Origin: Elusimicrobiota bacterium
Lineage (GTDB): Bacteria > Elusimicrobiota > Elusimicrobia > UBA1565 > UBA9628
Assembly: GCA_016218575.1 (NCBI GenBank)
Contig: JACRDN010000012.1
Location: forward strand, 1-64,000
Direction: 5' to 3'
Length of the DNA stretch: 64,000 nt
Shown here: positions 6,768 through 28,642 of the stretch, in pieces
Layout: the number at the start of each line of letters is the position of its first letter
Position numbering within the stretch: the first letter of the stretch is position 1
Program-made: the position numbers and the translations under genes
The notes under the pieces: generated by a model
Databases searched by the model: none
Seen by the model: the letters and a program-made list of their open reading frames with translations, nothing else
What the model was told of the DNA's origin: nothing

Positions 6768-7370
6768 CTACTCATGCAGCGATAGCAACCCGTGCTTGCG
6801 CCACTCCCGAAGCTCCATGCTCACGGCTTCCACGGTGAAGGCCTCAGGATCGAACGGCCGGCCGATCCATTCGACCATGTCCTCGTGCTCCGGATGCTTC
6901 GGGTCCTTGATGGCCGCCAGGAAATTCTCGTAGCCGGGGATGCTGCCGACATCTTCCGGCGGGCAAGCGCGAGCCCCGTCAAGGCAGACAGGGTGAGCGG
7001 CCTTGCCCTCAACGGGCCGCACATCCTCGACCGCGATCAGATGCTCCCAGCCGTCGCCGAAGTCGTATTCGTAGACGAGCTTCGAGCCCTTGCCCTTGGC
7101 GAGCTGGGCTAGCGTGTAGCGCCGCTCGTCCTTCGTCTCTTCCGGCCCCACGACCTCGTCGTCCGGAATCCCGTAATAGGTCTTGCCGACGATGAACTGG
7201 TGGAGATGCGAATTCGTCCAGCCCATCGCGACCTGTAGGACCTCATGGAGCTTCTTCATATTGATGTCGCTCGGCACGGCCAGCCTCCGCCAGATCGGCG
7301 GCTCGATGCCGTCCAGTGTCACCTTGAGTTGATACGTTTGAGCCGTTGATTTAGTTCCAGCCATGTTCAC
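6768..7370 (-). CDS. Plasmid pRiA4b ORF-3-like protein
   Basis: A 200-residue cytosolic protein. Residues 12-150 match the PRiA4_ORF3 fold: YQLKVTLDGIEPPIWRRLAV, LHEVLQVAMGWTNSHLHQF, and YEYDFGDGWEHLI. Members are common on plasmids and mobile islands, and their biochemical role is unknown. Translation probably starts at the GTG at 7370, which overlaps the upstream stop by four bases (GTGA); the ATG at 7364 is an alternative. It is the last gene of the long defence operon. Confidence 0.85.
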   Translation of the reverse strand: MNMAGTKSTAQTYQLKVTLDGIEPPIWRRLAVPSDINMKKLHEVLQVAMGWTNSHLHQFIVGKTYYGIPDDEVVGPEETKDERRYTLAQLAKGKGSKLVYEYDFGDGWEHLIAVEDVRPVEGKAAHPVCLDGARACPPEDVGSIPGYENFLAAIKDPKHPEHEDMVEWIGRPFDPEAFTVEAVSMELREWRKHGLLSLHE

Positions 7371-7591
7371 TCTCCCACGACGAAATCTCGGTAGGTCTCC
7401 GATGTGCGCTTGTCTCGCTTGATGCCTTCCGGCTTTGCGTCAAAGCACGTGTGGATGAGACAGCAGCATTCCGTCCACTTCTTTTGGTGCGCCACGTTAG
7501 GGAAAAGTGGACAGCGTCTGGTATCGTGATGTAGCCAGCGGAGGCACCTTTCACACCAGACTCGTACCGGCTCTTTCTTCGTTGTCTTCAT
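7367..7591 (-). CDS. Small Cys-rich protein of unknown function
   Basis: A 74-residue protein, MKTTKKEPVRVWCERCLRWL onward, with a CxxC pair, a His-His/Cys group (HHDTRRC), a CCC cluster and a further HTC. A zinc-binding fold is likely, but I do not recognise the family. The ATG at 7591 is 4 bases after the preceding gene's stop, and the 3' end overlaps the next gene by 4 bases. It therefore belongs to the operon. It may assist the neighbouring STAND protein, but that is only inferred from position. Confidence 0.6.
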   Translation of the reverse strand: MKTTKKEPVRVWCERCLRWLHHDTRRCPLFPNVAHQKKWTECCCLIHTCFDAKPEGIKRDKRTSETYRDFVVGE

Positions 7592-7595
7592 GAGA

Positions 7596-8351
7596 TCAAG
7601 TGTTCCCCTGCTCCTTCTTGGAAGTTGCCTTCTTCGGCGAAGGAAGAGCGCGGGAAAGCTGTTCAAAGTGGCGGGATAGAACTCGCCCATTCTTCTGTAG
7701 GTAATTTAGGCTTTCAGCGAGGCGTTTAAGCTCCGCACGACGGCGCTCAATCAAGTGCTCCGAGTCTTCGACAATCTTCTTCGCACTCTTGATATCGTCG
7801 GTAGGATCAAGAGCCATCGCCTCCTTGTTCTTGAGCCACTTATTCTCCTTTCGTGCTGCCGAGGTCGTTGCCATGGCCAGGCACCACCGGATCAGCGATC
7901 GGGATGCCGAGTCGATATTTGTCGCAATCTTCAACCACGTGCCGACGTCGCCGTCTGCCTCCGGAGTCCGATCAAAGTACCAGTTCAGGTTTTTGTCGCT
8001 TAGAATCTCTAACATCCTCACGATCGGAGCGAACGACTGCAAGGGCCGGCCCGGCAAAGCTGCGCGATGCTTCCAGATCTTGAGAATAACGTCGACGCAC
8101 TCGCGCTCGGCCAATGCCCTTTCAGCGCCGCTCGAACCTTTCGCCCGGGCGATAAGTTCCGCCAGATAATGCGACATCCAGCGCCCGAGTGTATCTACGC
8201 CTTGCTCGAACTTAAGCTCGGCTACCAACTCCTGACCGAAGGCGACGACATCCGCTGGTCGTGTGCAGGGAGCCGTCGCTTCTGAGGATGTAGAGCCTGG
8301 TGTAGAATTGATGCCTGTAGTACTCGGTGCTTTTCTCTTCTTTAGTCCCAT
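7596..8351 (-). CDS. Unknown protein, companion of the Avs-like gene
   Basis: A 251-residue soluble protein with a Ser/Thr/Pro-rich first 35 residues, a helical middle (LGRWMSHYLAELIARA; FAPIVRMLEILSDKNLNWYFD) and a Lys/Glu-rich, probably coiled C-terminus (180-250). No catalytic motif is evident. It overlaps the 3' end of the giant STAND gene by 140 bases when started at the ATG at 8351, which has GAGG upstream. An internal ATG near 8180 (MSHYLAEL) would remove the overlap. Such tight coupling suggests a partner or regulator of the STAND protein. I cannot assign a family. Confidence 0.6.
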   Translation of the reverse strand: MGLKKRKAPSTTGINSTPGSTSSEATAPCTRPADVVAFGQELVAELKFEQGVDTLGRWMSHYLAELIARAKGSSGAERALAERECVDVILKIWKHRAALPGRPLQSFAPIVRMLEILSDKNLNWYFDRTPEADGDVGTWLKIATNIDSASRSLIRWCLAMATTSAARKENKWLKNKEAMALDPTDDIKSAKKIVEDSEHLIERRRAELKRLAESLNYLQKNGRVLSRHFEQLSRALPSPKKATSKKEQGNT

Positions 8352-11300
8352 CGTCTCGTTTTACCTCTACCTCGATGATCAGATCGCGTTGCAACCTCGC
8401 CAAAACCGCGAGCAGGAATTTCAGATCCACGCTCATGTGGGTGCCGTCGTTCCCGCCCTCCTTATCACCATCGTCCCTGCGGCAGCCCCAGACCGTCGTT
8501 CGCATTACGGATCGGTTGCCGTACTGCCAAATACGCTGTTCGTCGTCACTCCTAAGGCGCCAAAGTCTACGTACCAGCCGTCCGGGACGGGGCACTGGCC
8601 AGCGAATGTCGCCTGACCTGCCATCGAACTTATCTAGCCCGGATTCGGTGCCGTCTGGACTCGCGATCCAACCCTTCAGTTCAAATTGGCCGGCGGAAAT
8701 CTGAAGGCTGTCACGCTCGGGAGGCACACGATAGTCGTGAAAGCAGTCGATATTTTGCAGAGCACGAAGGAGGGACAAGGAACTCTTCTGAGAAACCAAC
8801 GCCGTTGATATTCGGACATCCTCGCTTCTATACCCTTCCGTGCGATTCCACCGTCCCCAAGCGACGATCTCCTGCGGCACGGGTTTGTTGATACCAAGTG
8901 CTTGGTCGAAATCAACCGGCAGGATCGACCAGCGCCAGTCCTTGCTATTCTGCTCCCGCGGGTCTTTCTGCCACCGGGCGCGCTCCAGTGGTTCAAAATC
9001 GCGTCTGTCGGCGACCCATCTTCCATCCGGCCGCGTTAATAGGTGGCCTTCAAGCCATGCTGACCAGCGATCACCACGCCAGCTATCTTCCGTCGTAATC
9101 GCTCGTTTGGCGAGAAGCTCTCCCGCTGCACAAAACGAGGCGTGGTAGCTCAAATAGAATGTCAGGCGGTCCGCGCTTGGGTAACTTCCGTGATCGGGCT
9201 CGGTGCTGAATGACTTGAATTGGCCGAGGCGTGCTCGAGGATCCTCTTTCCAGGCCCCTCGATATTTCTCGCCCCACTTATCGACAATCCACTTGCCCAC
9301 CAAGTTGGCGACTTGCGCCGTGCTTTGGTTGAAGGTTTCTGCTAGCGGCCCAAGCCAATATCGATCAAAGTCGTAACCAAAGTGAAAGCCCCGGGCCTTC
9401 CAAACGTCCGTCCTCCACCCGACTTTCTGGCCAGGTTTTGGGGCGCGTCGTGGGAATGGACTCTCATTCACCTCTCGGAGCTGTGCCAGAGTCCCCGCAG
9501 GGCATGCCGAAGAATGTTTGTTCGCGATGGCCACAGCCGCGATAGCGGCAAAGTGCCGCATCAGGACATGCGGCTCATCGTGAAGGGCAAGCCGCAAGAA
9601 GACAGAGAAATAGTTCCGGAGAAATGATGGGTTCTCCTCAGCGACCCGGGCCATGGCGATGAGCAGATAGAGTCGGCCGTGCCGATAGTAGAGCGGAAAG
9701 CGGCGGTCGGTGAATGCCGGTAGCTCTTCGGCCCTCATCAGCTCGATCAACGCGGCAACAATCTCGCGTTGACCGACCGCGCACAGTCGCCTAACGGCAT
9801 GGACAGCGATCCAACGCTCTTCAGGTTTAGGGCTGCAGAGTATCGAAAAGAGGAAACCCGCGACGGCATGTGCTGACTTCTTTGGTGGGACCAGATTTGC
9901 TCGCCAATCCCCGTCGCCATCCTCTTCCCGTAGGATGGGATCTAATCGGTCGAGAGAGTACGTAAGCACTCGCAGCGATTCGGACGGTCTTAAGCTCACT
10001 CTGGCAACTTCGCCGGCGAGATGGAACCAGGATGCCGCTGCGACACTGTCAACATGGTCCGCCAACGCCCCCGTCAGACGGGATAACAAGTCTCTCTCGG
10101 ACAGCCCGCTCAGCCGGGCACAGCGGCCAAGATCGCGGCTTGAGACCCAGCGGCCCCGAGCCAGCCCAAGCGGATGTTGTTGGACGATTACTTTGATTTC
10201 CTCGCTCACGGCTCGTCGAACGGCTTCGCTGCTCTTCCAGGCTCCCACGGCTCCTTCCAGCATGTCGAGGGCCTGCCAAAATTCCAGTGCCGAGGCGCCA
10301 AGTGCGTGGACGTGACTTGCCCAGGACTTGGGCTTGATCCTCTGGCGAATTTGCAGATAAAGGGCCTCCCATTCCCAAGGGGCCGGCTGGGAACGCATCC
10401 TGGCGACAGCACGAGTGATTCCGGCCGGCGAATTGAGATCGAGCCCCTGGAGTAGACGTCGCCAGTTCGGCTTTTGCTCGCGACGCCCTGACTTCGGTAA
10501 GCTAAAGCTAACGGAGCTGCCACTCGAGCCCTTTCTTGAAGCCGCTGATTCAAACGCATGACGGGCCCTTAGCCGCCCGATATTCAAATCAAACTTCGTG
10601 GTTGCGGAGAGGAGCCCTGCCAGCGAGGTCTCCCTGCCCTCACTGAATTCAAGATCGGCGACTAATAGGTCGAGAATCTGCTGACGCTGTCGTTTCTCGA
10701 GGTTGCCGTCGAAGAAGAGCGCTGAGCTGTCACGCATTCCCCAATACCCGGGGAAGATGTGGAGGGCCGCCCCGATTGGCGGACTTAATTGTTTCCTTTC
10801 CAGCAAGGTGCATATGACGGGCGGCAATATCGACCCAAGCCAGGCTTGCCGGCGGTCGTGCCACCGGCTGGTGATGGCGAACCCTGAGGAGGAACAGAGC
10901 GCTGCAACAGCTTCTGACACGTCGTGCCAAGGAAACTTGTGGTCGTTGTGTGCCTCGAAAACTTCTGCGAGGCGAGCAAGCCTGTACGCTTCACGTGAAT
11001 GGGGCTTCCGATCCTGCGATGCAGCCCCTGCGACGGTAAGCAGGCAGAACAATCGGTCGTGCATTTCGTCGCCGATTCGCCCGAGGCGCTCTAGCGCGAG
11101 TTGGAAATAGCCGGCTGCTTCCGGCTGGCTGGCGGAGAGAACCGCACGGGCAAGGCTCGCAAGGCCTTCTGATGTCTGTCGAGCGTCCGCATGTTCCCCA
11201 AGGATGATGTCTTTCGCTCGAGCAGCAAGACTTAGGGCAGCTCTTGGAATGCTTGGATTCTGGGACGCAACGCGCGCGAGTGCCGTCCATGTTGGAGTGT

Positions 11301-14300
11301 GCACCCTGCTTTGCTGATCGAGCCACTTTGTCAAGACCTTGAGATTTACTTCAGTGGCCAGCCCTGCCCACCGGAGCGAATCGAGCCAAAGCAAAGGGAC
11401 ATCATTGATGACTCCAGTACGCTCACGGTCGTCTGGCGACCACGAAGTGTCGGAGAGCGACTCCCTCTCGGCGGCAGAGAGGAGCCCCGCAGCGTCGCGC
11501 TTTCTGAGCCTTCCGGCGACGGCCAAAGCACGTACTTTGTACCAGGGGATGAGGGCGCTATACGACCTCTTGAATTTCTTCGCCTCCTCATTGAATTCAG
11601 AGCCCTTTTTGGTCAGCTCGCCGGTGAGCGATGATGGCGTGATCTGGTCAAGCCCGAGTTCGGTGCCACTCAGAACAGACGCCAATGCCGCATTTCGCAA
11701 AACCGCGTCACGACGATCCCTTTCCCAGTGGTCGAACGGTCTCGCATGGGCTGGTCGGTGGGCCTCGAGAACTTCCTTTATGTGTGTTGCCCTGACTTTT
11801 CTCCGAAAGGCGAATTCTGACGCTGCGGCAATCGCGCAAGCGATTGCGCCGGAGTCCCGCTCCTCGGCGAGCTCATTCGGTTTTGTTCGTCGCAGGAGCT
11901 TGATGGTCGCGACCACGTCGGCGGAGCTGGGCAGCGCATGTACGCGACTCAGCTCTAAAGTGATGCCAAGCCGCAAGTGGAGGTCTCTGCCGGCATTGGC
12001 CAGCCATGCCTGCACGGCAGCAAGTCCTCCTGCGTCCAGAATGCGCTTTGAAACGAGCCGCCCTATCTCGAACGACAGCGATCTTGGCGTCCAGCCGGAG
12101 ATAAAACTTGCCGCCTTGCGAGGGCCCTCGATCAACAATACTGCGAGGGTCAGATCGGCTATGTGCTCTTTGCCGATATCCTGCCGGCTCTCCGAGGGCG
12201 TATTCGCCCAGTCTCGCAGCGACTGAAATGCAAGCTGCAAGAAATTCCCAGCTTCCGATCGCTGGTGTGGATCGGAAGCCAGCATGATCGCGCATTGCGC
12301 GTACCCACGATCGCCGAGTTCCCAGGCGCGCTTCCGAAAGATAAAGTCAAAAACAGTGTCTGAACCAGCGAGCCTCGCTACAAGGTCCGCATTGTCGGTC
12401 AAAAACCGCGCTTGGCGGTCATCCGAGGCGGTTTCCTCGCCGGCCCGTATCATCAGCTTCGCAGCATCTTCCAGTCGATTCTTGGAGATTGCCGCCTTGA
12501 GGGCATATCGGACCCGTCGAAGAATGACTTCCCGCTGTTCTACGGCATCGTCCCCACCAAAGGGTGGGCCGGTTAGGGCTAGGTCAACCAGTTTTGAGTA
12601 TTTGCCCGCGCCAAGCAGCAGCTGCGGTAGGGCAGCAGCAATATACCCGTCTGTGGCCGCCTTCGGCTCAAGGATCTCAACGATCTTGGAAAACGTACGT
12701 GGCGAAGCCGGAAACCGTTGCCTGAACCAGGTCTCTACAGGCTCGTCACGAAATTGAAGAGCCCCTTCATAGACCCAAAGTGGGCGGCCGCCCGCAAAAT
12801 CCGATGCGAAGCTGCGAACCGCCGCAGATGGAACCCCCGCAGCTAGGGCAAGCGTTCTTACCGGGACTAACGGGGGTAAAATCGACAGTGCTGTGCAAAG
12901 CGCCTGAAGATCCTTCGACGGGCCTTGTTCGCGCTCAACTCGGGTGAGCGCGCTCTCGAGTTGCTCCTTTATCAGAGTTTCCACCGTTCGCACCCGGGGG
13001 CCGAGACTGGCAAGAAGATCGGGCAGCGTATTGGAGTTGGCCAACGCGTTTGCCTGCACCCGAGGGTTGCTGTCCGTCAGACGGTGAAAACGTTTTACGT
13101 CGTCATCCGTGGCCTTCAGGTACTTCCCACGGAGATGGACGGCGGTTTCCGCTTCGGTGAATGGCGACAGGTCAACACGGATCGCAGATGCGGGCAACTT
13201 CAGAAGATCCAAGCGCTCCGTCCGCGCAAGGGCAACCAATCGGCAGCCCTCTGGTGGTGCCTCATGGAGGATATCCTGGACAAAGGCCGCCTCTCGCCGC
13301 TCATCGGCCGCAATTGCGGAATTGTCTGCGGCATCGAGGACGACGAGCACGATGGCTTTTGGCGACCGCGCCTTGACCACAAGGGCAGCTTGAGCCAGCC
13401 GCCGGCGAAACGCCCGAACAAATGCGTCTCTTGCCGTGCCCTTTGCTGGCAATAAGACATCGCACAGCCCACGCGCAGAGAGAGTGTTCGCTATGTGCAC
13501 CAAACCTCGCGAGTGAAGATGCCGTGGATCGCGGGGGGATCGATACGCTCCTGCCGCAAAGCCGTCGAAGATAACCGATTCCGAGCCTGGAGGAAGCCCC
13601 TTTAGAAGGCGTTGGGCCAGGATCGACTTACCAACCCCGCCCGCCGCGTGAATGACAACCGGATTGTCGGCGCGCAGGACGGCGTGAACGATTTCGCTCT
13701 CCTGCGAGCGAGGTATCTCTGATGCGACCTTCTCCATTCGCGGGGGCGACGGCAACAGGTCATCTTCCACGAAGCCGAGGCGATGAAGTACGGTCGCGCG
13801 AACAATGACATTGTCGGCCTTGGCCTCTGAAAGGGTTTTCGAATGAACGAGGTCCTTCATTCTGAGACAGGCGTCCACATCGACATGGCCGAGAAGGCCG
13901 CCAGCTTCAGACTCTAGGCTGGCGTACTGCTGCCTTCGACTTGCCTCCTGTCCTTGAAGGACGAGTAGTGGAAGAAACGCTTTGAACTCGACAGGCTTCA
14001 ATCCAGACGCGGCTCTAATCTTCTCAAGCGTTGGATTGGATCGACCCTTAAGGGCGTCCCAAATAGAGCTTGCGATAGGCCGGTTCGTTACAAAATGGAA
14101 GCGGACTCTCTGCGCCAAGATGGATGCGCTGTGTTTCTGCCGTAACGCGGCGAACCGCTCGCCAAAGCCTTTCAAAGTGTCTTTCAGACCGCTTACATTC
14201 CATGCCGTGTTGGCCGCAGTCGTAGAGTATTTGAGCTGGCAATAGGCAACCCGCTCGGCCTTTTTTAGCGATTGGGATCCAAAATACTCTGTCGTGTCGA

Positions 14301-14472
14301 TGACGAGAAGGCCGGCCGTTGTCTTGGCTTCCTTATCCGAAACACCTTCGACGGCAACCGCGACGAGTTTCGACGTGGGGTCAAGCAAACGAAGCGCTCT
14401 GCGTGCAGTCCATAGAATATGGAAGTCGTCACCATCGTTTCGGTAACGAACTAGATCCAGGTAGTTTGACAT
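8212..14472 (-). CDS. Avs-like antiphage protein: Cap4-type nuclease + STAND NTPase + long helical-repeat C-terminus
   Basis: A giant 2086-residue cytosolic protein. The first 220 residues look like a Cap4/DUF4297-type PD-(D/E)xK nuclease: Glu42 in VAVEGVSD, Asp59 in VIDTTEYFG and Gln79-x-Lys81 in YCQLKYS. A STAND/NACHT-type ATPase follows, with Walker A AAGGVGKS at 276-283 and Walker B VLVVLDAADN near 380. The last 1400 residues are rich in helical repeats (for example SLAARAKDIILGE and LASLARAVLSASQPEAAGYF). This architecture is that of Avs (antiviral STAND) proteins, which sense phage proteins with the C-terminal repeats and then degrade DNA. The exact Avs type cannot be set without profile searches. 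It lies 15 bases after the metallopeptidase gene in one operon with a type I R-M system. Confidence 0.8.
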   Translation of the reverse strand: MSNYLDLVRYRNDGDDFHILWTARRALRLLDPTSKLVAVAVEGVSDKEAKTTAGLLVIDTTEYFGSQSLKKAERVAYCQLKYSTTAANTAWNVSGLKDTLKGFGERFAALRQKHSASILAQRVRFHFVTNRPIASSIWDALKGRSNPTLEKIRAASGLKPVEFKAFLPLLVLQGQEASRRQQYASLESEAGGLLGHVDVDACLRMKDLVHSKTLSEAKADNVIVRATVLHRLGFVEDDLLPSPPRMEKVASEIPRSQESEIVHAVLRADNPVVIHAAGGVGKSILAQRLLKGLPPGSESVIFDGFAAGAYRSPRDPRHLHSRGLVHIANTLSARGLCDVLLPAKGTARDAFVRAFRRRLAQAALVVKARSPKAIVLVVLDAADNSAIAADERREAAFVQDILHEAPPEGCRLVALARTERLDLLKLPASAIRVDLSPFTEAETAVHLRGKYLKATDDDVKRFHRLTDSNPRVQANALANSNTLPDLLASLGPRVRTVETLIKEQLESALTRVEREQGPSKDLQALCTALSILPPLVPVRTLALAAGVPSAAVRSFASDFAGGRPLWVYEGALQFRDEPVETWFRQRFPASPRTFSKIVEILEPKAATDGYIAAALPQLLLGAGKYSKLVDLALTGPPFGGDDAVEQREVILRRVRYALKAAISKNRLEDAAKLMIRAGEETASDDRQARFLTDNADLVARLAGSDTVFDFIFRKRAWELGDRGYAQCAIMLASDPHQRSEAGNFLQLAFQSLRDWANTPSESRQDIGKEHIADLTLAVLLIEGPRKAASFISGWTPRSLSFEIGRLVSKRILDAGGLAAVQAWLANAGRDLHLRLGITLELSRVHALPSSADVVATIKLLRRTKPNELAEERDSGAIACAIAAASEFAFRRKVRATHIKEVLEAHRPAHARPFDHWERDRRDAVLRNAALASVLSGTELGLDQITPSSLTGELTKKGSEFNEEAKKFKRSYSALIPWYKVRALAVAGRLRKRDAAGLLSAAERESLSDTSWSPDDRERTGVINDVPLLWLDSLRWAGLATEVNLKVLTKWLDQQSRVHTPTWTALARVASQNPSIPRAALSLAARAKDIILGEHADARQTSEGLASLARAVLSASQPEAAGYFQLALERLGRIGDEMHDRLFCLLTVAGAASQDRKPHSREAYRLARLAEVFEAHNDHKFPWHDVSEAVAALCSSSGFAITSRWHDRRQAWLGSILPPVICTLLERKQLSPPIGAALHIFPGYWGMRDSSALFFDGNLEKRQRQQILDLLVADLEFSEGRETSLAGLLSATTKFDLNIGRLRARHAFESAASRKGSSGSSVSFSLPKSGRREQKPNWRRLLQGLDLNSPAGITRAVARMRSQPAPWEWEALYLQIRQRIKPKSWASHVHALGASALEFWQALDMLEGAVGAWKSSEAVRRAVSEEIKVIVQQHPLGLARGRWVSSRDLGRCARLSGLSERDLLSRLTGALADHVDSVAAASWFHLAGEVARVSLRPSESLRVLTYSLDRLDPILREEDGDGDWRANLVPPKKSAHAVAGFLFSILCSPKPEERWIAVHAVRRLCAVGQREIVAALIELMRAEELPAFTDRRFPLYYRHGRLYLLIAMARVAEENPSFLRNYFSVFLRLALHDEPHVLMRHFAAIAAVAIANKHSSACPAGTLAQLREVNESPFPRRAPKPGQKVGWRTDVWKARGFHFGYDFDRYWLGPLAETFNQSTAQVANLVGKWIVDKWGEKYRGAWKEDPRARLGQFKSFSTEPDHGSYPSADRLTFYLSYHASFCAAGELLAKRAITTEDSWRGDRWSAWLEGHLLTRPDGRWVADRRDFEPLERARWQKDPREQNSKDWRWSILPVDFDQALGINKPVPQEIVAWGRWNRTEGYRSEDVRISTALVSQKSSLSLLRALQNIDCFHDYRVPPERDSLQISAGQFELKGWIASPDGTESGLDKFDGRSGDIRWPVPRPGRLVRRLWRLRSDDEQRIWQYGNRSVMRTTVWGCRRDDGDKEGGNDGTHMSVDLKFLLAVLARLQRDLIIEVEVKRDDGTKEEKSTEYYRHQFYTRLYILRSDGSLHTTSGCRRLRSGVGSRA

Positions 14473-14487: not shown

Positions 14488-15216
14488 CTAAAAGATCGCG
14501 ACCCCCGGCCCTTCGCGGCGCAGCCATTGACGACGCCTCTCAAAGTCAGGCAGGACAGATTTCAATATGCGCCAGAACCGGGCCGAGTGATCATGCGTTT
14601 TCAGGTGGCAAAGCTCGTGGACAATGACGTACTCCAAGACCGGAATGGGCATCATTGAAAGCCGCCAGTTGAGGCGGATGTCTCCGGACTTCGAGCAGCT
14701 CGCCCAGCGCATCGCTTGATCCCCAATTCGGAGCTTCCCCGGCTTCACTGCCAACGCTCTGGCATGCTTGCGCACAACCGCAGATGCCTTTCGCTCGGTG
14801 AGTGCTGAATACCAGCTGCGAACCGCGCTCGACATGGCCGCCCTGAGCGCGTCGCCTTCCTGGCCATCCACGACGACCTTGAGCCGGCGATCCTCAACCT
14901 GGCAGTAGGGAACCTCAAGGCCTTGCCGCCGCTCCAGTTTCAACCTGAGGTTGCGTCCTAGGACAGAGAAGCTCTCTCCGTTCTTCAGCTCCTTTCCGGG
15001 GTGCCTCCGCTTTAATTCGCGGAAGTAACACTGGCGTTCGACAATCCAGGATGATCGGCGGGACACAAATTGCCGGACTTGAGCGCGCGTCATAAACTTC
15101 GGCGCGCGGACCTCGGCCACGCCATTGCGGTGCACTTTGAGAGCCATCGTCTTGCTGCGCTGGGTAACGAGAACCTTGAACTCGATCCTCTGGCGACGAT
15201 AAAGGATAAATGGCAT
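14488..15216 (-). CDS. YgjP/M48-like zinc metallopeptidase
   Basis: A 242-residue protein of the YgjP (DUF45) family, with the zinc motif VIVHELCHLKTHDHSARFW near residue 195-215 and the preceding MRWASCSKSGDIRLNWRL block. These proteins are often encoded beside type I restriction genes, but their substrate is unknown. A role in processing HsdR or another operon product is a reasonable guess. The ATG at 15216 is 2 bases after the hsdR stop, so it is preferred to 15234, which lies inside hsdR. No signal peptide is seen. Confidence 0.88.
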   Translation of the reverse strand: MPFILYRRQRIEFKVLVTQRSKTMALKVHRNGVAEVRAPKFMTRAQVRQFVSRRSSWIVERQCYFRELKRRHPGKELKNGESFSVLGRNLRLKLERRQGLEVPYCQVEDRRLKVVVDGQEGDALRAAMSSAVRSWYSALTERKASAVVRKHARALAVKPGKLRIGDQAMRWASCSKSGDIRLNWRLSMMPIPVLEYVIVHELCHLKTHDHSARFWRILKSVLPDFERRRQWLRREGPGVAIF

Positions 15217-15218
15217 GG

Positions 15219-18250
<3,032 letters not shown>

Positions 18251-18254
<4 letters not shown>

Positions 18255-19138
18255 ACAAAGGGGCACCTTTCCAGCGCGGGCTTCTTTGCGAGCGCAAATC
18301 GAAAGTCCTCATGCAGCCGCTTGGCTTCCTCCGCAAGAATTCCAAACTCGGCCTTGAGCTTCTCGATCCCCGTGGAGTCCTTTGCGATCTTGTCGATAGC
18401 GGCAATGATCTGGGCTCCTTGCTCTGAAGATCCGCATTTTACAACCTGGGTCTGTGTCCGAGAGGTCTTCACCTCGTTGTTGCTTCCGCCAGGCACGCAG
18501 AGGCCCTCCTCACCGATGCCGAGTCGACGATTGAGAACCAAGACTGCGATATGCGGATAGTTGGCCCAGGCCCCTGGTTCTGGAGCACCTCCCGCATAGG
18601 CGAGCTGGAGGCCGGCGAGTTCCTGCAGCTTGGGAATGACCGACTCCGCATTTTCACGGGCCTTCCCGGCCATCGATCGATAGCGCTCTTCAAACCTTTT
18701 CCAACGCTGAAGGAGGTCGGGGTAATGCACCTTCAGCGCATCGTCGAAGTATCTCTGGAACCCTTCGGTCTCATGCCAGTAATCGTCCTGAAAGATTCCC
18801 ATCCGGTCGGTCTTGGCAGGCGTCTTGATCCGAACGCGAAATTCGGTGCGGACATAGGTATCCTGGGCAATGTGCTCTTTGTTGCGGTTGATGACTTCCG
18901 TGCCAACCTCGATCGGGGACATTTTCATCTGACACACGGGGAGGTAGAACTCCTTGAGGTAGGCGTAGATTGGCGCAAGAACTTCCTTCTGAATCTCATG
19001 CGCGTGCTCCTCCCGCAAGCGCATCTTTCGTCTGAAATGCTCCTTGCCGATATCCGTGAAGAAGCCGACGCCCCAACCCAGGACGCCGGTGGCAGCTACC
19101 ATCCAGTGGTCTTTGATGAACTCCAAAGGTGCGGTCAT
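18251..19138 (-). CDS. Membrane-anchored protein of unknown function inside the hsd operon
   Basis: A 295-residue protein with one hydrophobic segment near the N-terminus (WMVAATGVLGWGVGFF, residues 12-27), followed by charged helices (RKMRLREEHAHEIQKEV) and a mainly helical cytosolic body. No enzyme motif is visible. It lies between hsdS (4 bases) and hsdR (4-base overlap), so its expression is tied to theirs. A membrane anchor in a restriction operon is unusual. It might place restriction at the envelope or act as an independent membrane effector. Confidence 0.7.
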
Positions 19139-19142
19139 CGGC

Positions 19143-20375
19143 CTACACCCGAACCTTGCCGGTCAAAAGCACTTGCATCAATCCCTCTTTCAAGACTTCC
19201 ATTCGCTCACAGGCTGCTTCGGACTGCAATATCGCACGGTCGACGGCTAGCAGTCGCTGCCCGATTGCTCTCTGCTCGCCCAGTTCTGGCAAAGGGATTG
19301 GGCACATCGCCACATCGCCCGCATTTACCGCCGGGTAATTGGAGCCCGTCATCCTTTCTACTAGGAAGTTTACGAAGCGATCGCTACGGATGAACTGATA
19401 AAGGAAGTCTCCATCGACCATCAGCTTTGGATTCAGTACCGCAAAGCCCGTGGAGGCGATGAGATTCTCAGGCGCATCATCAATTTTGGTGAACGCCATT
19501 AGGTAAGGGCGTACTGTTGAGACAAGGATATCTCCGGACCTCACAACTCGACGAGCGCGAGAGGGAGCCGCCTTGAAGACGACCTCCCGCATCTCGGAAA
19601 TGGTCCCTCGGTTATCGACGGAGGAGATGTCGATGTACCGAAACCTTGAATCGGGTGGCGTTGCCTCCCCGAGGGCCTCCACGTTGATACTGGTGCAGTC
19701 TCCAATTGAAGACATCTTCCAGCCATATTGACGCGGCATGCGAACGAAGACTTCTTGGATGAGCCCTTGCTTTAGCTTGCGCGTCGCCTGCGCCGCCGCA
19801 GCGGCTTTTTCAATAGAAGCTTCGATCGCAGACAGAATCTCGGCGATCTTTTTCTGCTCTTGCTTGGGAGGCAGCGGGAGGGCGAATGCCTCTAGATCGC
19901 TTCGCAGGACCCCATTAATTGAGGTGCCTTGGTGAGTCGCCTTCAATTGCGGCACGAGCATGTTCAGTGCCCAAAAAAGATATTCCGGGTGCACGCGATT
20001 CGTGTCAGGGATTAGTCCCGTGATGTCCTGGCTAATGGCTAGGTCGAAAGGAGCGATGGCCAACTTCCCAACACCCGTCCTGGTCACAATAAGGATAGAG
20101 CCCTTCGGGAGGACATTCGTTGTGCTGCTACGAACTGCCTCTTGGGTAATGTGTCGACGCGCGGCTATGACCTTCTGCTTTGAAAAATCAGCCCCGGTAA
20201 TCCAAGGGATATCTCCGCGCCAGTACGCCTCAGCCTTTGTGTCTGGTGTGCCGCCATTGACAAGTTCCCTTGCGAGCGACCCTACAGAGGACGCTTCCCA
20301 ATCCACGGGAATTTCTCCTGCGGGTGTTTTCTTGAATCGCTGTTGCGCGCCAACTATTGTGACTTGATCGGCCAT
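19143..20375 (-). CDS. hsdS: Type I restriction specificity subunit S
   Basis: Target-recognition subunit, 410 residues. It has two target-recognition domains, each followed by a long conserved helix. TRD1 spans about 20-155 (DIPWITGADFSKQ; GKLAIAPFDLAISQDITGLI), with the first spacer helix LPPKQEQKKIAEILSAIEAS near 175-195. TRD2 spans about 215-360, with the final helix LPELGEQRAIGQRLLAVDRA. The recognised DNA site cannot be predicted by eye. It lies 3 bases after the HTH gene. Confidence 0.93.
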   Translation of the reverse strand: MADQVTIVGAQQRFKKTPAGEIPVDWEASSVGSLARELVNGGTPDTKAEAYWRGDIPWITGADFSKQKVIAARRHITQEAVRSSTTNVLPKGSILIVTRTGVGKLAIAPFDLAISQDITGLIPDTNRVHPEYLFWALNMLVPQLKATHQGTSINGVLRSDLEAFALPLPPKQEQKKIAEILSAIEASIEKAAAAAQATRKLKQGLIQEVFVRMPRQYGWKMSSIGDCTSINVEALGEATPPDSRFRYIDISSVDNRGTISEMREVVFKAAPSRARRVVRSGDILVSTVRPYLMAFTKIDDAPENLIASTGFAVLNPKLMVDGDFLYQFIRSDRFVNFLVERMTGSNYPAVNAGDVAMCPIPLPELGEQRAIGQRLLAVDRAILQSEAACERMEVLKEGLMQVLLTGKVRV

Positions 20376-20378
20376 GGC

Positions 20379-21464
20379 TTATCGCGAAGGCAAACTCTCC
20401 CGTTCTTTCACTTTGAGATCGAAGATTGCGCCCAGGAACCTCAGCAGCATTTGCTGGTACAACTCCGATGGAAGTCCCGTGGACGGAACATCTCCGAGGT
20501 AATACCCCGCGCGCGCGAACTCGCGCGCCACGGTTTCCACGCTGGCCTGAACGTCCATAAGCTTCGAGCCCCGCATGTAGTCGGAAAGCGAGGGTGCTGC
20601 TATCTCGTCGACCGTCTTCCAAATAGAGGAGAACCCCCCGAATATAGCCGTCCAGTTCAGCCAATCCGGTTCCGAGGCGTGCTGATACTCGGCTGATGCC
20701 AGGAAGCTCCACCACCGTGGCTTTGAAAGCCAATACTCGACCTTTTTCCCATAAGGCTTCTTCACGATGAGGCCGGACCTGGATACGTCGATCAGGGCCT
20801 GATGGACGCTCAGCCAGAATAGGCCGACCGAGTCAGCGATTTCTCTCGGATGCCCTTCATTGTGCGTAAGCAGATACAAGAGAACTTCGGACTTTGCCCC
20901 GATTCCGAACAAGGAGCGCATGAGGAACCGGAGGTTGGAGCCAGAGTTCGCCGTGACCTCTTGGGCTTTCTTCTGAGTCTTGATGCGTGGCCTGTTGAAG
21001 TCGAAGGCCCTGAAGCTTGGATCGATATTGTCGCCTTCCGCGCGGGGGTGGAACTCTCCGGATGGCATTTTGAAGAGAGGTTCAAGCAGGCCGCCCATCG
21101 GAGGCTTCCGGCCGTGACAGTACCTGACGAGGTTTTTCCATTTCCTGCTCTGCCCGTGGTCCGCGACATACTGCAAGGAGCCGCCGACAACGCGAATCAC
21201 GTTGGCATCCTGGGTCGAAAGGAGTCTACGCAGCCTGGCGTTATCGAGCCACTCGCCGTTGACCTGCAGCCACGCGAGGATCTCGTCGAACAAGCGCGGC
21301 TCAAAGCGCGCTAGGTCCAGCGAGAAGATCAGCAAGGCCTCGGGGTCGATGATCCATTTGTCTTCCGCCCCCGAGACTCCCAGGATGCCGAGCGTGTTCC
21401 ACTGACGCCAAAGGAGCGTCAGCATACGGTCAAGCAGCGCTTCTCTAAAGTCTTTGAGCGACAT
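20379..21464 (-). CDS. HTH-domain partner of the nucleotidyltransferase
   Basis: A 361-residue protein. The middle (about 195-250) has a winged-helix/ArsR-like pattern: SEVLLYLLTHNEGHPREIAD, then FWLSVHQALIDVSRSGLIVK and a wing YGKKVEYWLS. The first 150 residues are helical without a known signature. It overlaps the nucleotidyltransferase gene by 20 bases. Two-gene HTH + nucleotidyltransferase pairs of this sort resemble AbiE-like toxin-antitoxin modules. Here the HTH protein would be the regulator or antitoxin, but the order is reversed compared with abiEi-abiEii. The assignment is tentative. Confidence 0.7.
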   Translation of the reverse strand: MSLKDFREALLDRMLTLLWRQWNTLGILGVSGAEDKWIIDPEALLIFSLDLARFEPRLFDEILAWLQVNGEWLDNARLRRLLSTQDANVIRVVGGSLQYVADHGQSRKWKNLVRYCHGRKPPMGGLLEPLFKMPSGEFHPRAEGDNIDPSFRAFDFNRPRIKTQKKAQEVTANSGSNLRFLMRSLFGIGAKSEVLLYLLTHNEGHPREIADSVGLFWLSVHQALIDVSRSGLIVKKPYGKKVEYWLSKPRWWSFLASAEYQHASEPDWLNWTAIFGGFSSIWKTVDEIAAPSLSDYMRGSKLMDVQASVETVAREFARAGYYLGDVPSTGLPSELYQQMLLRFLGAIFDLKVKERESLPSR

Positions 21465-22044
21465 CGGAGTGCCCCATTTCCTTTAGAATCCGTTTCACTT
21501 CGCCGCGATAGGGCTCTGACACGTCGTGGGTCATGCTCCAGCGCGCGGCCTGTTCGAGCTCCTGGGCCGACGGATTGAGTTCCAAGAGGTCCTGATAGTG
21601 CTTGCCGGCCTGGTCCACCGCGGCATAGAGCTTGAAGTGAATCTGGTCGTAGCGACTGATAAAACGCACCGTCAGATGCTCGCCATAACTTCGGACCTCC
21701 GCTCGGTCGAGAACGCCTTCGGGCAGACCGAAATCCAAAGCGGAGGTCGGGCCGGGATTCAGCCAGCCATCCTTGAGGTGCAGGTCGCGCCCGACCTTCG
21801 CGGCTGCTTCGATAAGGTGCGACGGGAGCGGCTGAGCCGTATGCATGGCAAGACCATCGTTCGGCGTCTCCGAAAGCAGCGCCACGACATCGACGTCCTT
21901 GGTGGGCCTCGTGACCAAGCGCAGCGCGTGCAGCGCCGAACCGCCGCAGACCAGCAGGTCAACCGGCGACTTCTTCATCGCCGCAAGCTGCTCGCCGAGC
22001 GCGGACAATACCTGGTCGATCTCTTCCTTGCTGTGAAATGCCAT
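21445..22044 (-). CDS. DUF6036-like nucleotidyltransferase
   Basis: A 199-residue protein with the nucleotidyltransferase core GGSALHALRLVTRPTKDVDVV at about 33-53: GGSA turn, then an Asp-x-Asp metal motif in KDVDVV. This matches DUF6036/AbiEii-type nucleotidyltransferases that may modify RNA or protein. It lies 3 bases after hsdM and overlaps the HTH gene. Its position between hsdM and hsdS suggests an addiction or regulation module embedded in the R-M operon. Confidence 0.8.
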   Translation of the reverse strand: MAFHSKEEIDQVLSALGEQLAAMKKSPVDLLVCGGSALHALRLVTRPTKDVDVVALLSETPNDGLAMHTAQPLPSHLIEAAAKVGRDLHLKDGWLNPGPTSALDFGLPEGVLDRAEVRSYGEHLTVRFISRYDQIHFKLYAAVDQAGKHYQDLLELNPSAQELEQAARWSMTHDVSEPYRGEVKRILKEMGHSDVAQRL

Positions 22045-22047
22045 GCC

Positions 22048-23532
<1,485 letters not shown>

Positions 23533-23559
23533 TTAGAGGGCTCCCATTCCGATGAGATT

Positions 23560-23588
23560 ATTATAGCTGCTATATCGATTCCTGTCAA
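23560..23588 (-). promoter_or_regulatory. Consensus sigma-70 promoter of the defence operon
   Basis: On the minus strand TTGACA (23583-23588), a 17-base spacer and TATAAT (23560-23565), all perfect matches to consensus, 28 bases ahead of the hsdM start codon. No operator-like repeat is obvious, so the operon may be strongly and constitutively expressed. Confidence 0.85.
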
Positions 23589-23602
23589 GTCATGCTTTAT
23601 AG

Positions 23603-24604
23603 TTAAACAATCGTATTAATATCTGATTTACCATAGTATAAGCCAGTGTTGGCAAGTAATCGGTCCATTGGCGAATATCTCCGGTGCGCGTCGTACACGT
23701 CCCGGTTGGCGAGATGGACGTATTGCCGGACCATCTCCAGCGTTGAGTGGCCCAGGATTTGTTGGAGGCTGAACGGATCGCCACCATTGATGATGTACTG
23801 CGTCGCGCAGGTGTGGCGCAGCGTGTGCGGCGAGACGCGCACGCCTTGGATGCCGGCGCGCTCGCCGTAGCGCTTGATCATGATCTGGACATGCCGGCTC
23901 GTCAGCTCCCCGCCGTGCCGGCTGATGAACAGCAAGTCCGACGGGACGACGATCCGCCGCCGCGCGACCAGATACGCTTCGAGCGCCTGGCGCGTGACCT
24001 TGGCGAAAGGAACGCGGCGCTCCTTTCGACCCTTTCCCATGACCAGGACGGTGCCGCCCGGCACGTCTACGTTGGGCAGCCTCAGCTTTAGCGCCTCCGA
24101 GAGCCGCAGCCCCGAGTCCAGCATGAGCAGCATGAGGACCTTGTTTCGCAACCCAAGGAACGATTTGGGGTCGGCCTGCGCAAGCAGCGTTCGGACATGC
24201 TCGGACTGGAGCGGTTGGATCAAGTGCCGCTCGCGCTTCGGGCGCTCGACCAGCTCCATCGGATTGGAGCGGATCAATCCCTCGCGCAGCAGGAACTTGA
24301 AGAAGCAGCGCAGACCGCCGTAGGTCCGGTGCACGGTCTCGGACGACAACTCGCGCGCCTTGAGTTGGCTCAGATGCGCGCGGATGTGTCCCGCCGTGAT
24401 CCCCTCCATGCTCGCGATCCCGTAGCGCTGGACCAGGAAGCGCTCAAGGCCGCCGAGGATTTGGTGATACCAGGCCAGAGTGCCCGACGACAGATTGCGC
24501 GAGTCGCAGCGCAACCGGAACTCTTCATACGCCTGCTGAAACGTCGTCGCCTTGCGCGACTCCGAAAGACGATCTTGGTTTAGAGTGTTCGTTATCTCGT
24601 TCAA
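23603..24604 (-). CDS. Tyrosine recombinase/integrase (copy 1)
   Basis: A 333-residue phage-integrase-family recombinase. It has an N-terminal SAM-like core-binding domain (25-115) and a catalytic domain with Arg167, Lys191, His260-x-x-Arg263, His286 and the nucleophile Tyr295 (LGHSTLEMVRQYVHLANRDV). All six catalytic residues are present. Translation probably starts at the TTG at 24604, preceded by GGGAGGAAA. It is clearly related to the second recombinase at 29077-30042 and to the remnant at 35655-35855. It lies just upstream of the defence operon's promoter on the same strand, and may mark an older element nested in island 1. Confidence 0.93.
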   Translation of the reverse strand: MNEITNTLNQDRLSESRKATTFQQAYEEFRLRCDSRNLSSGTLAWYHQILGGLERFLVQRYGIASMEGITAGHIRAHLSQLKARELSSETVHRTYGGLRCFFKFLLREGLIRSNPMELVERPKRERHLIQPLQSEHVRTLLAQADPKSFLGLRNKVLMLLMLDSGLRLSEALKLRLPNVDVPGGTVLVMGKGRKERRVPFAKVTRQALEAYLVARRRIVVPSDLLFISRHGGELTSRHVQIMIKRYGERAGIQGVRVSPHTLRHTCATQYIINGGDPFSLQQILGHSTLEMVRQYVHLANRDVYDAHRRYSPMDRLLANTGLYYGKSDINTIV

Positions 24605-24616
24605 TTTCCTCCCATG

Positions 24617-24645
24617 CAGACCGAGTTTCCCCCGGTCTTCTTTTT
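24617..24645 (+). terminator. Possible intrinsic terminator
   Basis: AGACCG ... CGGTCT followed by TCTTTTT on the plus strand, located between the integrase start and the coupling-protein gene. No plus-strand gene feeds it, so it may only insulate the integrase leader. Confidence 0.35.
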
Positions 24646-24705
24646 AGGGGAGTCGCATGCTCCCCGATTCGACTCATCCGGCACCCAGGTGCGTCAACGG
24701 CGCTT

Positions 24706-26454
24706 CTAGCGCAGCCGTCCGTCGTTGTCGAAGCGTCCCGGTCCCTTCATCTCGCTCTCAAGTTCAAGCCCTACGCCTTTCTGAACTGGACCGCCTTCAA
24801 GCAGCGGCATTTCAAGCGGCTCAAGCAAACGCGCCACACCTGCCGTCCTCGCCAGGCACTCAAGACGCCCGGCCGAGTAGATGAGCGCCGTGCCCGGCAC
24901 CAGGCTCTTGAGCAGGTTGGGATGAACCTTGAACTCCTCGACCTCCCGTCGGGATATCTGCCCCGTGCGCATGGTCCCAAGCGCGCCACGCTGGACCTGC
25001 TCGGTGTCCTTGAACGTCGTGTAGGTCCCGAGCGTGGCGGACCAGAACTCCGCGTCCTCAGGGGCGGGAGTTCTGAAGCAGACCTTGCAGCCCGAGGTGT
25101 TGGCGAAGACCGCCGAGTGGAAGGCTTCGGCCGACATTCCCTCGATCCTCTTGAGCTGGCCCAGGTCTTGATGTGAGAGGACCGTCCAGAAGCGCGCCGA
25201 GCCCACCGTGGCAATGAAAGATGAGAACACCGGCGTGGCGAACTCCGCGAACTCGTCCAGGATCACCGAGGCAGGCTCGGGCTTCGGGTACATCTTCTGC
25301 CGAGAAGCCGCCACCGAGAGCAGGCCCGAGATGAGCATGCGGCCAAGCGGATTGGCGAGGACCTGAAGGTGCCCTATGGGGACCGCGAAGTAAGCAAGCT
25401 GCCCGCGCTCGAAGACATCCTCCAGGCGGATTTCCGGGGAGTAGTCGTTGAGCAGCCGTCCCAACTCTCCGGTCGTCCATGGCCGAATGGCCGAGGTCAG
25501 CGCCGAGGTGTCGGTCCCTTTCTTGAAGTCCTCGGCCGCGGCGTCTACTTTGCGCGTGTCCTTGCAGAGGTCGAATGCCTTCTTGCGGGCCTTCTCCGAG
25601 CTGAAGTAGGCGAGGCAGTCCTTGAGGGTGAACTCAAGGCCCGTGGCACAGAAGACCTCGACCATGTTGAGCATCCGGGCGTAGTCGAGCGAGCGGTAAT
25701 AGTCCTGGCCCTCGCCCGAGGACGTGGGTTCTCGGCCGATAGCGCGCGCGAGCTGGTTGGCGACCGCCGTCGTGTCCTGGCCGGGCAGCCGCCGGATCGG
25801 GTTGAAGGTCATCGAGCGCGCATCCTGCGGATTGAAGTAGCGCACGTCCGCCGCGCGCCCAGCCAGGTTCGCCAGTTTTAGGAACTGGTCGAAGTCCGAG
25901 CTGTCGCCCTTGGCCTCCATGAAGAAGACCGGCATGCCGCGCTTCATGTCCTGGCCTGAAAGGCCGAAGAGAAGCTGCGACTTGCCCGAGCGGGTCGGCC
26001 CCACGATCTGCATGTGGCTTTCGCGCTCCTTATCGGTCACGAAGACCTTGGTCCAGCCGTTGGCCGTGCCGAGGAACGTCCCGTGTGCGGACGGCTCGCC
26101 CTCAAGAATCCGGCCGAGCGGCTTGTCAGTGCTGCCCGCCTGGCGCGGCGCGTCCCATTGGCGCTTGCGCGCGCCAGGGCCAGGCTTGCGCAGGGCCAGG
26201 CCCAGGCCGACGAACAGGCCAAGCGCCGCGGAGGCTCCTTGGGCGGTGCGCCGCAGGTCCCCGACCGGGATGCGCCGGAGTATCCCGAGGTCCTTTCGGA
26301 GTTTCAAGAGGACCGGCAGGCCTATCAACGGCAGGGACAGGGCGACGGCCAGAGCGAGCGCCAAGCCCGCGAGCTTACGGCGCTCGAAATGCACCAGCAC
26401 CGAGGTTGCAATGACCCCGATGACGCAGACCAACATCGCGATTTTGGCTTCCAT
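24706..26454 (-). CDS. VirD4/TraG-like type IV coupling ATPase
   Basis: A 582-residue membrane-bound DNA-translocating ATPase. The N-terminus has transmembrane segments at about 5-22 and 29-50, and a further hydrophobic stretch at 72-90. Walker A GPTRSGKS is at 152-159, Walker B SVILDEFAEFA near 380, and a conserved Gln box follows (LSHQDLGQLK). This is the TraD/TraG/VirD4 class that delivers DNA to a conjugation channel. No channel or relaxase genes are near, so it would have to use those of a helper element. Its start overlaps the upstream stop (TAATG). Confidence 0.85.
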   Translation of the reverse strand: MEAKIAMLVCVIGVIATSVLVHFERRKLAGLALALAVALSLPLIGLPVLLKLRKDLGILRRIPVGDLRRTAQGASAALGLFVGLGLALRKPGPGARKRQWDAPRQAGSTDKPLGRILEGEPSAHGTFLGTANGWTKVFVTDKERESHMQIVGPTRSGKSQLLFGLSGQDMKRGMPVFFMEAKGDSSDFDQFLKLANLAGRAADVRYFNPQDARSMTFNPIRRLPGQDTTAVANQLARAIGREPTSSGEGQDYYRSLDYARMLNMVEVFCATGLEFTLKDCLAYFSSEKARKKAFDLCKDTRKVDAAAEDFKKGTDTSALTSAIRPWTTGELGRLLNDYSPEIRLEDVFERGQLAYFAVPIGHLQVLANPLGRMLISGLLSVAASRQKMYPKPEPASVILDEFAEFATPVFSSFIATVGSARFWTVLSHQDLGQLKRIEGMSAEAFHSAVFANTSGCKVCFRTPAPEDAEFWSATLGTYTTFKDTEQVQRGALGTMRTGQISRREVEEFKVHPNLLKSLVPGTALIYSAGRLECLARTAGVARLLEPLEMPLLEGGPVQKGVGLELESEMKGPGRFDNDGRLR

Positions 26455-27329
26455 TAGGCGGCACCTCCCACGGTTTCAAGGTCGGACGGCAAGGCTTTCG
26501 GCGCGCTCAGAATGGACGCCGCCGAGGCCGGCACGAGTCTCAGGCTGCGGCCTTCGCAGTTGGCGAAGGTACAGCGCCCGGCGCTGGCCCTGAACTCCGC
26601 CAGGTCGCAGACGTAGATGAACGGCATGCTCAGGCGCGCGGCCTGCCGGCGAACAAAGTCCGGCCCGCTCGGCCAGTTTGTCAGGTAGAGGACCACGGCC
26701 CGGCCAGGCAGCGAGGCCCGATAGGAGCCCCAGATATCGGGGTAGAGCTGGGTCGCTTTCTTGTTCAACTCGACCTCGACCGCCTTGGGCTCGGCCGGGT
26801 CCGAGATCCACAAGTCCGGGATTCGGGACCGGCTCGTGGTGTGGCTCCAGCCGCCACGACTGTTCCAGTCCGTGCGCTCCCGGATCGTCCGGACCGTGAG
26901 CCCATGCAGCCGGGACAGCACCAAACCCACGGCGTTGACCAGGATCTCATGCTCGATCAGATGGCCCGAGACCGACCGCTTGAAGCCCGGGAGCCGCGCC
27001 AATTTCGCCGCCTTGAGCGCCCGATGACCCCGGCTTGTCAGCGTGAAGACCATCGGGAAGTCCCGATAGAAATGAGCCTCCACATGGCCCGACTTCTTGA
27101 GGTCTTGAAGCCTCTTGTACCCCGACAGCCGGTACAGATTCTCGCCGTATTCGTTGAAGAGCAGCCTCGCCCGTTCGGTTTCTCCGAGACCTTTATGGAA
27201 CACCAAGCCGTCTATTTGTCCCAGCCCGAGCACTCCCCACAGTTCCAACTCCCGCAACAACTCCCCATCCCTTTCCTGCAACTCCGCCCCGCCTTTCTTG
27301 CCTTTCCCTTTCGATTTTCTGTTGATCAA
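26454..27329 (-). CDS. Replication-relaxation family protein
   Basis: About 291 residues with a winged-helix N-terminus (LLRELELWGVLGLGQIDGLVF; RLQDLKKSGHVEAHF) and the HxxxV-type core HLIEHEILVNAVGLVLSRL. A PD-(D/E)xK-like stretch follows (IPDLWISDPAEPKAVEVELN), as in the Replic_Relax family of plasmids and integrative elements. I place the start at a TTG (27329) with GGAGGT six bases upstream. The open frame runs to 27554 but the extra part covers strong hairpins and low-complexity Lys/Gly codons. Its role may be in nicking or initiating transfer or replication, working with the coupling ATPase directly downstream. Confidence 0.75.
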   Translation of the reverse strand: MINRKSKGKGKKGGAELQERDGELLRELELWGVLGLGQIDGLVFHKGLGETERARLLFNEYGENLYRLSGYKRLQDLKKSGHVEAHFYRDFPMVFTLTSRGHRALKAAKLARLPGFKRSVSGHLIEHEILVNAVGLVLSRLHGLTVRTIRERTDWNSRGGWSHTTSRSRIPDLWISDPAEPKAVEVELNKKATQLYPDIWGSYRASLPGRAVVLYLTNWPSGPDFVRRQAARLSMPFIYVCDLAEFRASAGRCTFANCEGRSLRLVPASAASILSAPKALPSDLETVGGAA

Positions 27330-27423
27330 TCTCTGACCTCCCCCGTTTTTTTGTCCCTTCCCTTGTCCTCCTCCCTTTCCTATCTGCACCTCCCTGACCG
27401 CCGCAGTCTTTTTTGCCCGCCGC

Positions 27424-27467
27424 TTCCCAACCCCAGCACCACATCGTTGTGGGGGTGGGGTTGGGAA
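27424..27467. other. Long hairpin upstream of the replication-relaxation gene
   Basis: A perfect 11-bp stem TTCCCAACCCC (27424-27434) / GGGGTTGGGAA (27457-27467) encloses a further CACCACA/TGTGG pairing. It lies in the 300-bp segment 27330-27629, which I believe holds no gene. It could be a DNA hairpin of a transfer or replication origin, or an RNA leader element. Confidence 0.6.
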
Positions 27468-27537
27468 GAAAAGTCCTCGCAGAGGACGACAGGCGGGCGA
27501 GAAAAAGCCTCGCGGCGGCCGTCGTTTTCTCGTTGAG

Positions 27538-27575
27538 GCCTTCGAATGCACCACTGTTCTGTGGCGCTCGAAGGC
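27538..27575. other. Second long hairpin in the same leader
   Basis: GCCTTCGA (27538-27545) pairs with TCGAAGGC (27568-27575). An inner GCACCAC (27548-27554) pairs with GTGGCGC (27561-27567) with one mismatch around a six-base loop. On the minus strand GCCTC...GAGGC followed by TTTTT (27502-27540) could form a terminator-like alternative. With the hairpin at 27424 it makes a structured region of about 150 bases. Confidence 0.6.
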
Positions 27576-27629
27576 TTAAGACCCTCCCTAGGAGTAACGA
27601 ACGAGGGGGCCGGTTTTAGACAGGTAGTT

Positions 27630-28421: not shown

Positions 28422-28449
28422 GATTTTCTTTGACCGGCCCGGACTTCGG

Positions 28450-28596
28450 GCAATAAAAAGCGAGAAACGAGCTGGTCGTTTCCCGTGGTCTCATCCCGTT
28501 ACGGCGGGATCGTGGATACCCTGGGGCCTATTCCCCAGGCTACACAGGCGGTGTCGGGCAAGCTTCGCCCGACGGTAATAGGGTAACGGCATTATA
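28450..28596 (-). ncRNA. Candidate structured small RNA or attenuator leader
   Basis: On the minus strand a TATAAT box (28591-28596) is followed by four perfect stem-loops: GTCGGGC/GCCCGAC (28553-28573), CCTGGGG/CCCCAGG (28520-28539), ATCCCG/CGGGAT (28493-28510) and GAAACGA/TCGTTTC (28464-28482). The last runs into CGCTTTTTATT, an intrinsic terminator. CCGTTAC near the 5' end could also pair with GTAACGG in the third loop. No protein frame fits. It may be an independent RNA of about 135 nt or a cis leader of the gene starting at 28421. I see no clear -35 box. Confidence 0.6.
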
Positions 28597-28642
28597 CCTT
28601 TTCTCCAGGGCCATCCGGCCCCAAAAACCTAGGCCATTGGGC

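Follow-up and report, generated by a model that had tools for sequence, protein, structure and literature searches.

Does the gene for a very large Avs-type nuclease in the genome of an Elusimicrobiota bacterium encode a receptor that stands on its own, or does it form a unit with the small gene that overlaps its 3′ end, and what might the small protein then do? We examined these questions in a window of 64,000 nucleotides, meaning the whole stretch of DNA that was analyzed (contig JACRDN010000012.1, positions 1 to 64,000). The four genes of the run under study (avs3a, avs3b and two further small genes) all lie on its minus strand, and together with their upstream neighbor are laid out as follows:

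14488..15234, minus strand: YgjP-like metallopeptidase gene, 15 nt upstream of avs3a (Pfam PF01863, 1e-54)
8212..14472, minus strand: avs3a, AVAST type 3 nuclease/STAND NTPase, 2086 aa (ORF finder; PADLOC, NCBIfam and PDB matches)
13768..14451, minus strand: N-terminal PD-(D/E)xK (Cap4/DUF4297-type) nuclease part of Avs3a, residues about 8-235 (predicted domain limits)
13033..13710, minus strand: STAND/NACHT-like NTPase part of Avs3a, residues about 255-480 (predicted domain limits)
8212..8351, minus strand: avs3a/avs3b overlap of 140 nt, with avs3b in the +1 phase and the avs3a stop within avs3b codon 47
7596..8351, minus strand: avs3b, small partner predicted to be all-helical, 251 aa (PADLOC PDLC02168, NCBIfam NF041817; low-confidence AlphaFold2 models)
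7367..7591, minus strand: orphan gene for a Cys-rich protein of 74 aa, directly 3′ of avs3b (coding-like codon use in its own frame)
6768..7370, minus strand: pRiA4b ORF-3-like gene, 200 aa, which ends the gene run (Pfam PF07929, 5.3e-71)

Identity of the two proteins

The large protein had been described in an initial annotation, made from the sequence alone, as an Avs-type STAND nuclease combining a Cap4-like nuclease with a STAND ATPase, and its matches to Avs3a and SeAvs3 as well as its conserved motifs bear this out. It is aligned from position 5 to 2089 of the 2090 positions of the PADLOC Avs3a profile (PDLC02167; E=0, 1647 bits) and is recovered by the NCBIfam model NF041816 (E=0, 1717 bits, below the equivalog cut-off of 2800 bits), while in a search of PDB sequences its sole match at E <= 0.1 was SeAvs3 (8dgc_A, 1140 bits). 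An assignment to the Avs4 type was rejected, as Avs3a is both the best and the sole PADLOC match. Pfam yields just NACHT (0.0053) and AAA_16 (0.004) at residues 258-448, both weak and under the cut-off, and the Avs3 family is therefore easily missed by such a search; what nevertheless makes the NTPase reading safe is that Avs3a and SeAvs3 are matched over nearly the full length. The initial annotation had also seen a very long repeat region, for which Pfam gives just a faint trace (HEAT_EZ, E 0.34).

Across 22 aligned Avs3a rows (the window and 21 others), the NTPase residues G279, G281, K282, D380 and D383 are kept throughout (22/22); in the window protein, Walker A reads GGVGKS (278-283) and D380-D383 forms the Walker B region. 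The putative nuclease residues are E42, D59 and K81, each kept in 21/22 rows, and Q79, kept in 22/22; from the family we take these four to be catalytic. The sole row without E42, D59 and K81 comes from a Shewanella baltica plasmid (L019), whose Avs3a has an open frame of 2105 aa with its NTPase motifs retained and is likewise accompanied by Avs3b; perhaps its nuclease is dead, or the effector has changed. Further, the Avs3a N-terminal regions of a metagenome-assembled genome labelled Microbispora (L008) and of Pseudoroseomonas aestuarii (L013) are near-identical, reflecting either a recent transfer or a binning error.

The 251-aa protein had initially been put forward as an unknown, potentially new partner. 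This idea had to be given up, because Avs3b is already named in both PADLOC and NCBIfam, and the pair is annotated as such on a Klebsiella plasmid: the window protein matches the PADLOC model PDLC02168 at 7.5e-40 and the NCBIfam model NF041817 at 7.3e-41 (140 bits, under the 200-bit cut-off). Since both proteins match curated families far below chance level, the avs3a/avs3b pair is more than a chance association; since both fall under the equivalog cut-offs, NCBI’s own pipeline would probably not name it. In the open literature that we searched, with the founding AVAST papers outside its scope, we found SeAvs3 only and no mention of the name “Avs3b”.

No Pfam family was found for Avs3b. Two AlphaFold2 models of it are all-helical, with pLDDT of 62 and 65 and pTM of 0.34 and 0.35, values of low confidence that make the models too poor to use; a Foldseek search with the second had no hit at E <= 0.001. 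Searches of PDB sequences returned nothing convincing for the window Avs3b (best 0.0091, a SNARE-like chain), a best value of 0.048 for the Avs3b profile and none for the Klebsiella Avs3b. No Avs3b was found in phage records, and it occurs in just 1 of 340 genomes of the window’s phylum and 1 of its 147 nearest relatives, each time the window’s own.

The two further small genes noted initially as following without gaps are indeed present and almost contiguous: the 74-aa ORF runs from ATG 7591 to its stop at 7367, beginning 4 nt past avs3b, and the GTG start of the 200-aa ORF overlaps its stop by 4 nt. The ORF finder lists the former as 107 aa (7367..7690, from an upstream ATG at 7690), but the gene most likely starts at ATG 7591. 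Its codon use scores 0.005 in its own frame versus -0.163 or lower in the other five. The 107-aa reading had no match in PADLOC or NCBIfam and solely a sub-threshold PLATZ match in Pfam. Among the 147 relatives the only convincing place for this gene was its own, with all others at 6.9e-4 or weaker, and no homologue was found in the plasmid collection.

The overlap of avs3a and avs3b

The claim that the small gene overlaps the 3′ end of the large one by up to 140 bases holds in its coordinates. ATG 8351 is the only ATG, GTG or TTG ahead of residue 42 in avs3b, and the frame opens 9 nt further upstream; the full 140-nt overlap is thus probably real. For avs3a, and for avs3b in the region past the overlap, codon use favors the annotated frame.

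The same architecture recurs in other loci. Across the 19 mapped open pairs, which are related by descent and do not amount to 19 independent events, Avs3b always stands in the +1 phase with respect to Avs3a (19/19); the pair on a viral contig (L037) shares this phase, as worked out by hand from its coordinates 297 and 6430. The Avs3b frame extends 17-194 nt upstream of the Avs3a stop in the mapped loci, and in an alignment of Avs3b this stop maps to window residues 33-53 in 19/19 pairs, always within the first conserved segment of the protein. As avs3a ends in conserved codons of avs3b, a complete segment requires translation of avs3b to start inside avs3a. The embedded overlap persists even where identity to the window has dropped to 24%. 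It is an old, fixed feature, and translational coupling of avs3b to avs3a would be its natural reading.

Two other explanations of the overlap were considered. A chance overlapping ORF was rejected, given its conservation in 20 loci. A programmed frameshift fusing Avs3a to Avs3b is unsupported: the stop contexts, compared by eye, have no slippery sequence in common, and the constant +1 phase would permit a +1 shift but rules out a simple -1 shift. Common descent, with a stop codon that sits within the codons of Avs3b, accounts better for the constant phase.

Distribution of Avs3b among Avs3a-type loci

The initial annotation had assumed that Avs3/4-type genes usually act alone. We assembled 28 Avs3a-type loci: the window; 11 loci from genome contigs (L003-L013); 13 of the 14 plasmid records with Avs3a at E <= 1e-50, a duplicate strain record (H21) being left out; the viral contig L037; a single genome from a class search of 289 genomes (L031); and a plasmid found through its Avs3b that bears an Avs3a remnant (L027). 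Of three scans of viral contigs, two were without a hit. Among the 28 loci, 20 have an open Avs3b immediately downstream (the window, L003-L006, L008-L010, L012, L015-L023, L027 and L037), which, along with the existing Avs3b models, contradicts that assumption. Absence of the partner beside all close homologues, the outcome that the initial annotation had held to count against its reading, is likewise not what the 28 loci display.

The remaining loci are of several kinds. In Pseudoalteromonas (L007), stop codons interrupt Avs3b, next to an open Avs3a frame of 2101 aa. L011 and L013 have truncated Avs3a frames, of 1639 and 1682 aa, and yielded no Avs3b. The available stretch of L031 ends inside the gene, and its partner status was accordingly excluded from the judged loci. 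In L024, L025, L028 and L029 even a sensitive profile search detected no Avs3b. The first three of these form one branch with support 100/100 in an Avs3a tree of 21 rows, which omits split frames (L005, L020, L029), truncated ones (L011, L013), the remnant (L027) and the partial gene (L031). Avs3b is thus near-constant in the main Avs3a group and absent from one divergent group.

The converse arrangement was seen on a Qipengyuania plasmid (L026, corresponding to record H6 and lying outside the 28; H7 is another record from that organism), where an open Avs3b at 7968-8714 adjoins an integrase without an Avs3a; a faint remnant of an Avs3a C-terminus (E 0.047) is discernible in the overlap region.

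Genomic surroundings

Upstream of avs3a lies a further defense operon, recognized by Pfam and PADLOC:

15219..23532, minus strand: type I restriction-modification operon
15219-18266, minus strand: hsdR
19143-20375, minus strand: hsdS
22048-23532, minus strand: hsdM
18251-19138, 20379-21464 and 21445-22044, minus strand: three ORFs within the operon (ORF finder)

The last three gave no match in PADLOC or NCBIfam, and in Pfam solely the third did, as a DUF6036 nucleotidyltransferase below the cut-off (E 0.0023). Further upstream on the same strand follow two phage-type integrase genes with a TraG/TraD-like gene between them, and then a serine recombinase gene, the 3′ end of which runs into a tRNA-Met gene (30218-30292). 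The hsdM gene, the integrases, the TraG/TraD-like gene and the recombinase (window 22048-31937) are all on one side of the defense genes. This configuration suggests an integrated mobile island; scans of the area for repeats and tRNAs showed no sign of a repeat-borne element. The locus as a whole looks like a horizontally acquired defense island.

Proposed mechanism and alternatives

We propose that the locus is probably a divergent, apparently intact AVAST type 3 (Avs3) anti-phage system in which Avs3b serves as a helper or regulator. Published accounts of SeAvs3 place its nuclease domain in the PD-(D/E)xK family (PMC11291478) and describe the binding of a viral protein as the trigger for tetramerization and DNA cleavage (PMC11291478; PMC10952240); more generally, Avs1-Avs4 are reported to cleave phage and host DNA on sensing terminase, portal or another phage protein (PMC12931631). 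By analogy, Avs3a would be an NLR-like receptor whose long C-terminal part binds a phage protein produced in infection; it would then oligomerize with bound nucleotide, whereupon its N-terminal PD-(D/E)xK nuclease would cut DNA and halt the infection. Avs3b would be a dedicated partner, whose translation is predicted to start inside avs3a and hence to be tied to avs3a expression. As a helical helper it may bind Avs3a and set its folding, stability or activation threshold, and the activated tetramer would not need it as a structural element. Most likely, the pair amounts to a working nuclease, predicted to be triggered by a phage protein and to be co-produced with a helical protein that helps or regulates it.

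That Avs3b would be a helper rather than a core subunit fits better with two observations: no Avs3b-like chain was found anywhere in the PDB, where SeAvs3 was solved as the four chains of 8DGC, although this absence may just mean that nobody has solved one; and there is an Avs3a-like group without Avs3b. Between a helper or regulator, a co-sensor and a strict inhibitor, we favor the first with low confidence.

A somewhat unlikely alternative is that Avs3b is an essential co-sensor or adaptor, which would bind the trigger or extend the Avs3a sensor such that Avs3a alone is blind to some phages. Such a role would be in keeping with the co-translation architecture and with a linkage that is almost universal in the main Avs3a group. 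The overlapping C-terminal tail of Avs3a ends differently in the group devoid of Avs3b. However, the very existence of that divergent group speaks against an essential function, and SeAvs3 is described as being activated by viral proteins that bind its own sensor domain (PMC11291478).

Alternatively, Avs3b could be an inhibitor, as the initial annotation had suggested, acting as an antitoxin-like brake on self-activation of the nuclease, a role that we regard as improbable. A small partner co-translated by overlap with a toxic effector is, from general knowledge, the arrangement expected of a brake, and the avs3a-avs3b linkage across loci conforms to it. Yet four Avs3a-like loci (one of them split) do without Avs3b, the broken Avs3b beside the open 2101-aa Avs3a in Pseudoalteromonas makes a strict need for a brake unlikely there, and the Shewanella protein L019 lacks the nuclease residues while its Avs3b is still kept.

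More speculatively, Avs3b might be a true second subunit, its synthesis bound to that of its receptor, that gates the assembly of the nuclease tetramer, with the embedded stop codon fixing the stoichiometry and the 74-aa gene supplying a third component in this branch. We hold this to be doubtful; if true, the “single-protein” Avs3 receptor would be a regulated complex. Finally, that the locus has decayed or fallen silent in this genome is very improbable, for although its rarity (Avs3b in 1/340 genomes of the phylum), the integrases and recombinase nearby and the decay seen elsewhere (L007, L011, L013, L026, L027) would be compatible with this, neither window frame is interrupted, no motif has been lost and codon use favors the frames as annotated.

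With this locus, the Avs3a-Avs3b pair gains a deep branch. Avs3 proteins are the bacterial counterparts of NLR immune receptors.

Comparison with known systems

The two-gene Avs3a-Avs3b system is already known, and its receptor mechanism is published. The closest annotated point of reference is the pair on the Klebsiella variicola plasmid pKPN692_2, named avs3a/avs3b, whose overlap measures 107 nt against 140 nt in the window. The Klebsiella Avs3a is nearly the same protein as SeAvs3 (PDB 8DGC; 4396 bits over residues 1-2092) and, with 3076 bits, passes the NCBIfam cut-off. The window shares with this Klebsiella/Salmonella SeAvs3 type the gene order, a near full-length Avs3a, the presence of Avs3b and an overlap in the same phase. 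It differs in its sequences, with identities to the Klebsiella pair of 34% for Avs3a (whole alignment) and 37% for Avs3b (over 166 aligned positions), and in what comes next, namely the Cys-rich 74-aa orphan and the pRiA4b ORF-3-like gene. Judged by its scores under the NCBIfam cut-offs, which serve to name the same protein and do not define the system, the window pair is a divergent member of the family and not the same equivalog as the NCBIfam models. The trigger of SeAvs3 is the large terminase subunit; given the scores under the cut-offs and the 34%/37% identity, that of the window pair could be a different one.

The DUF4297-HerA and CBASS Cap4 systems have a related PD-(D/E)xK nuclease domain fold (PMC11291478), but are not the same system as Avs3, from which they differ in their sensor and ATPase machinery.

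The group without Avs3b, found on plasmids of Cupriavidus, Janthinobacterium, Agrobacterium and Rhizobium (L024, L025, L028 and L029), resembles the window in its layout of nuclease, STAND and long C-terminal part, with PADLOC Avs3a scores of 618-660 bits for the two tested (L024, L025). Its Avs3a-like proteins measure 2179-2215 aa where unbroken, that of L029 being split. Unlike the window, these loci have no Avs3b, and the C-terminal tail of the protein differs (L024, L025, L028). Loci with and without Avs3b thus constitute ready-made pairs for probing its role.
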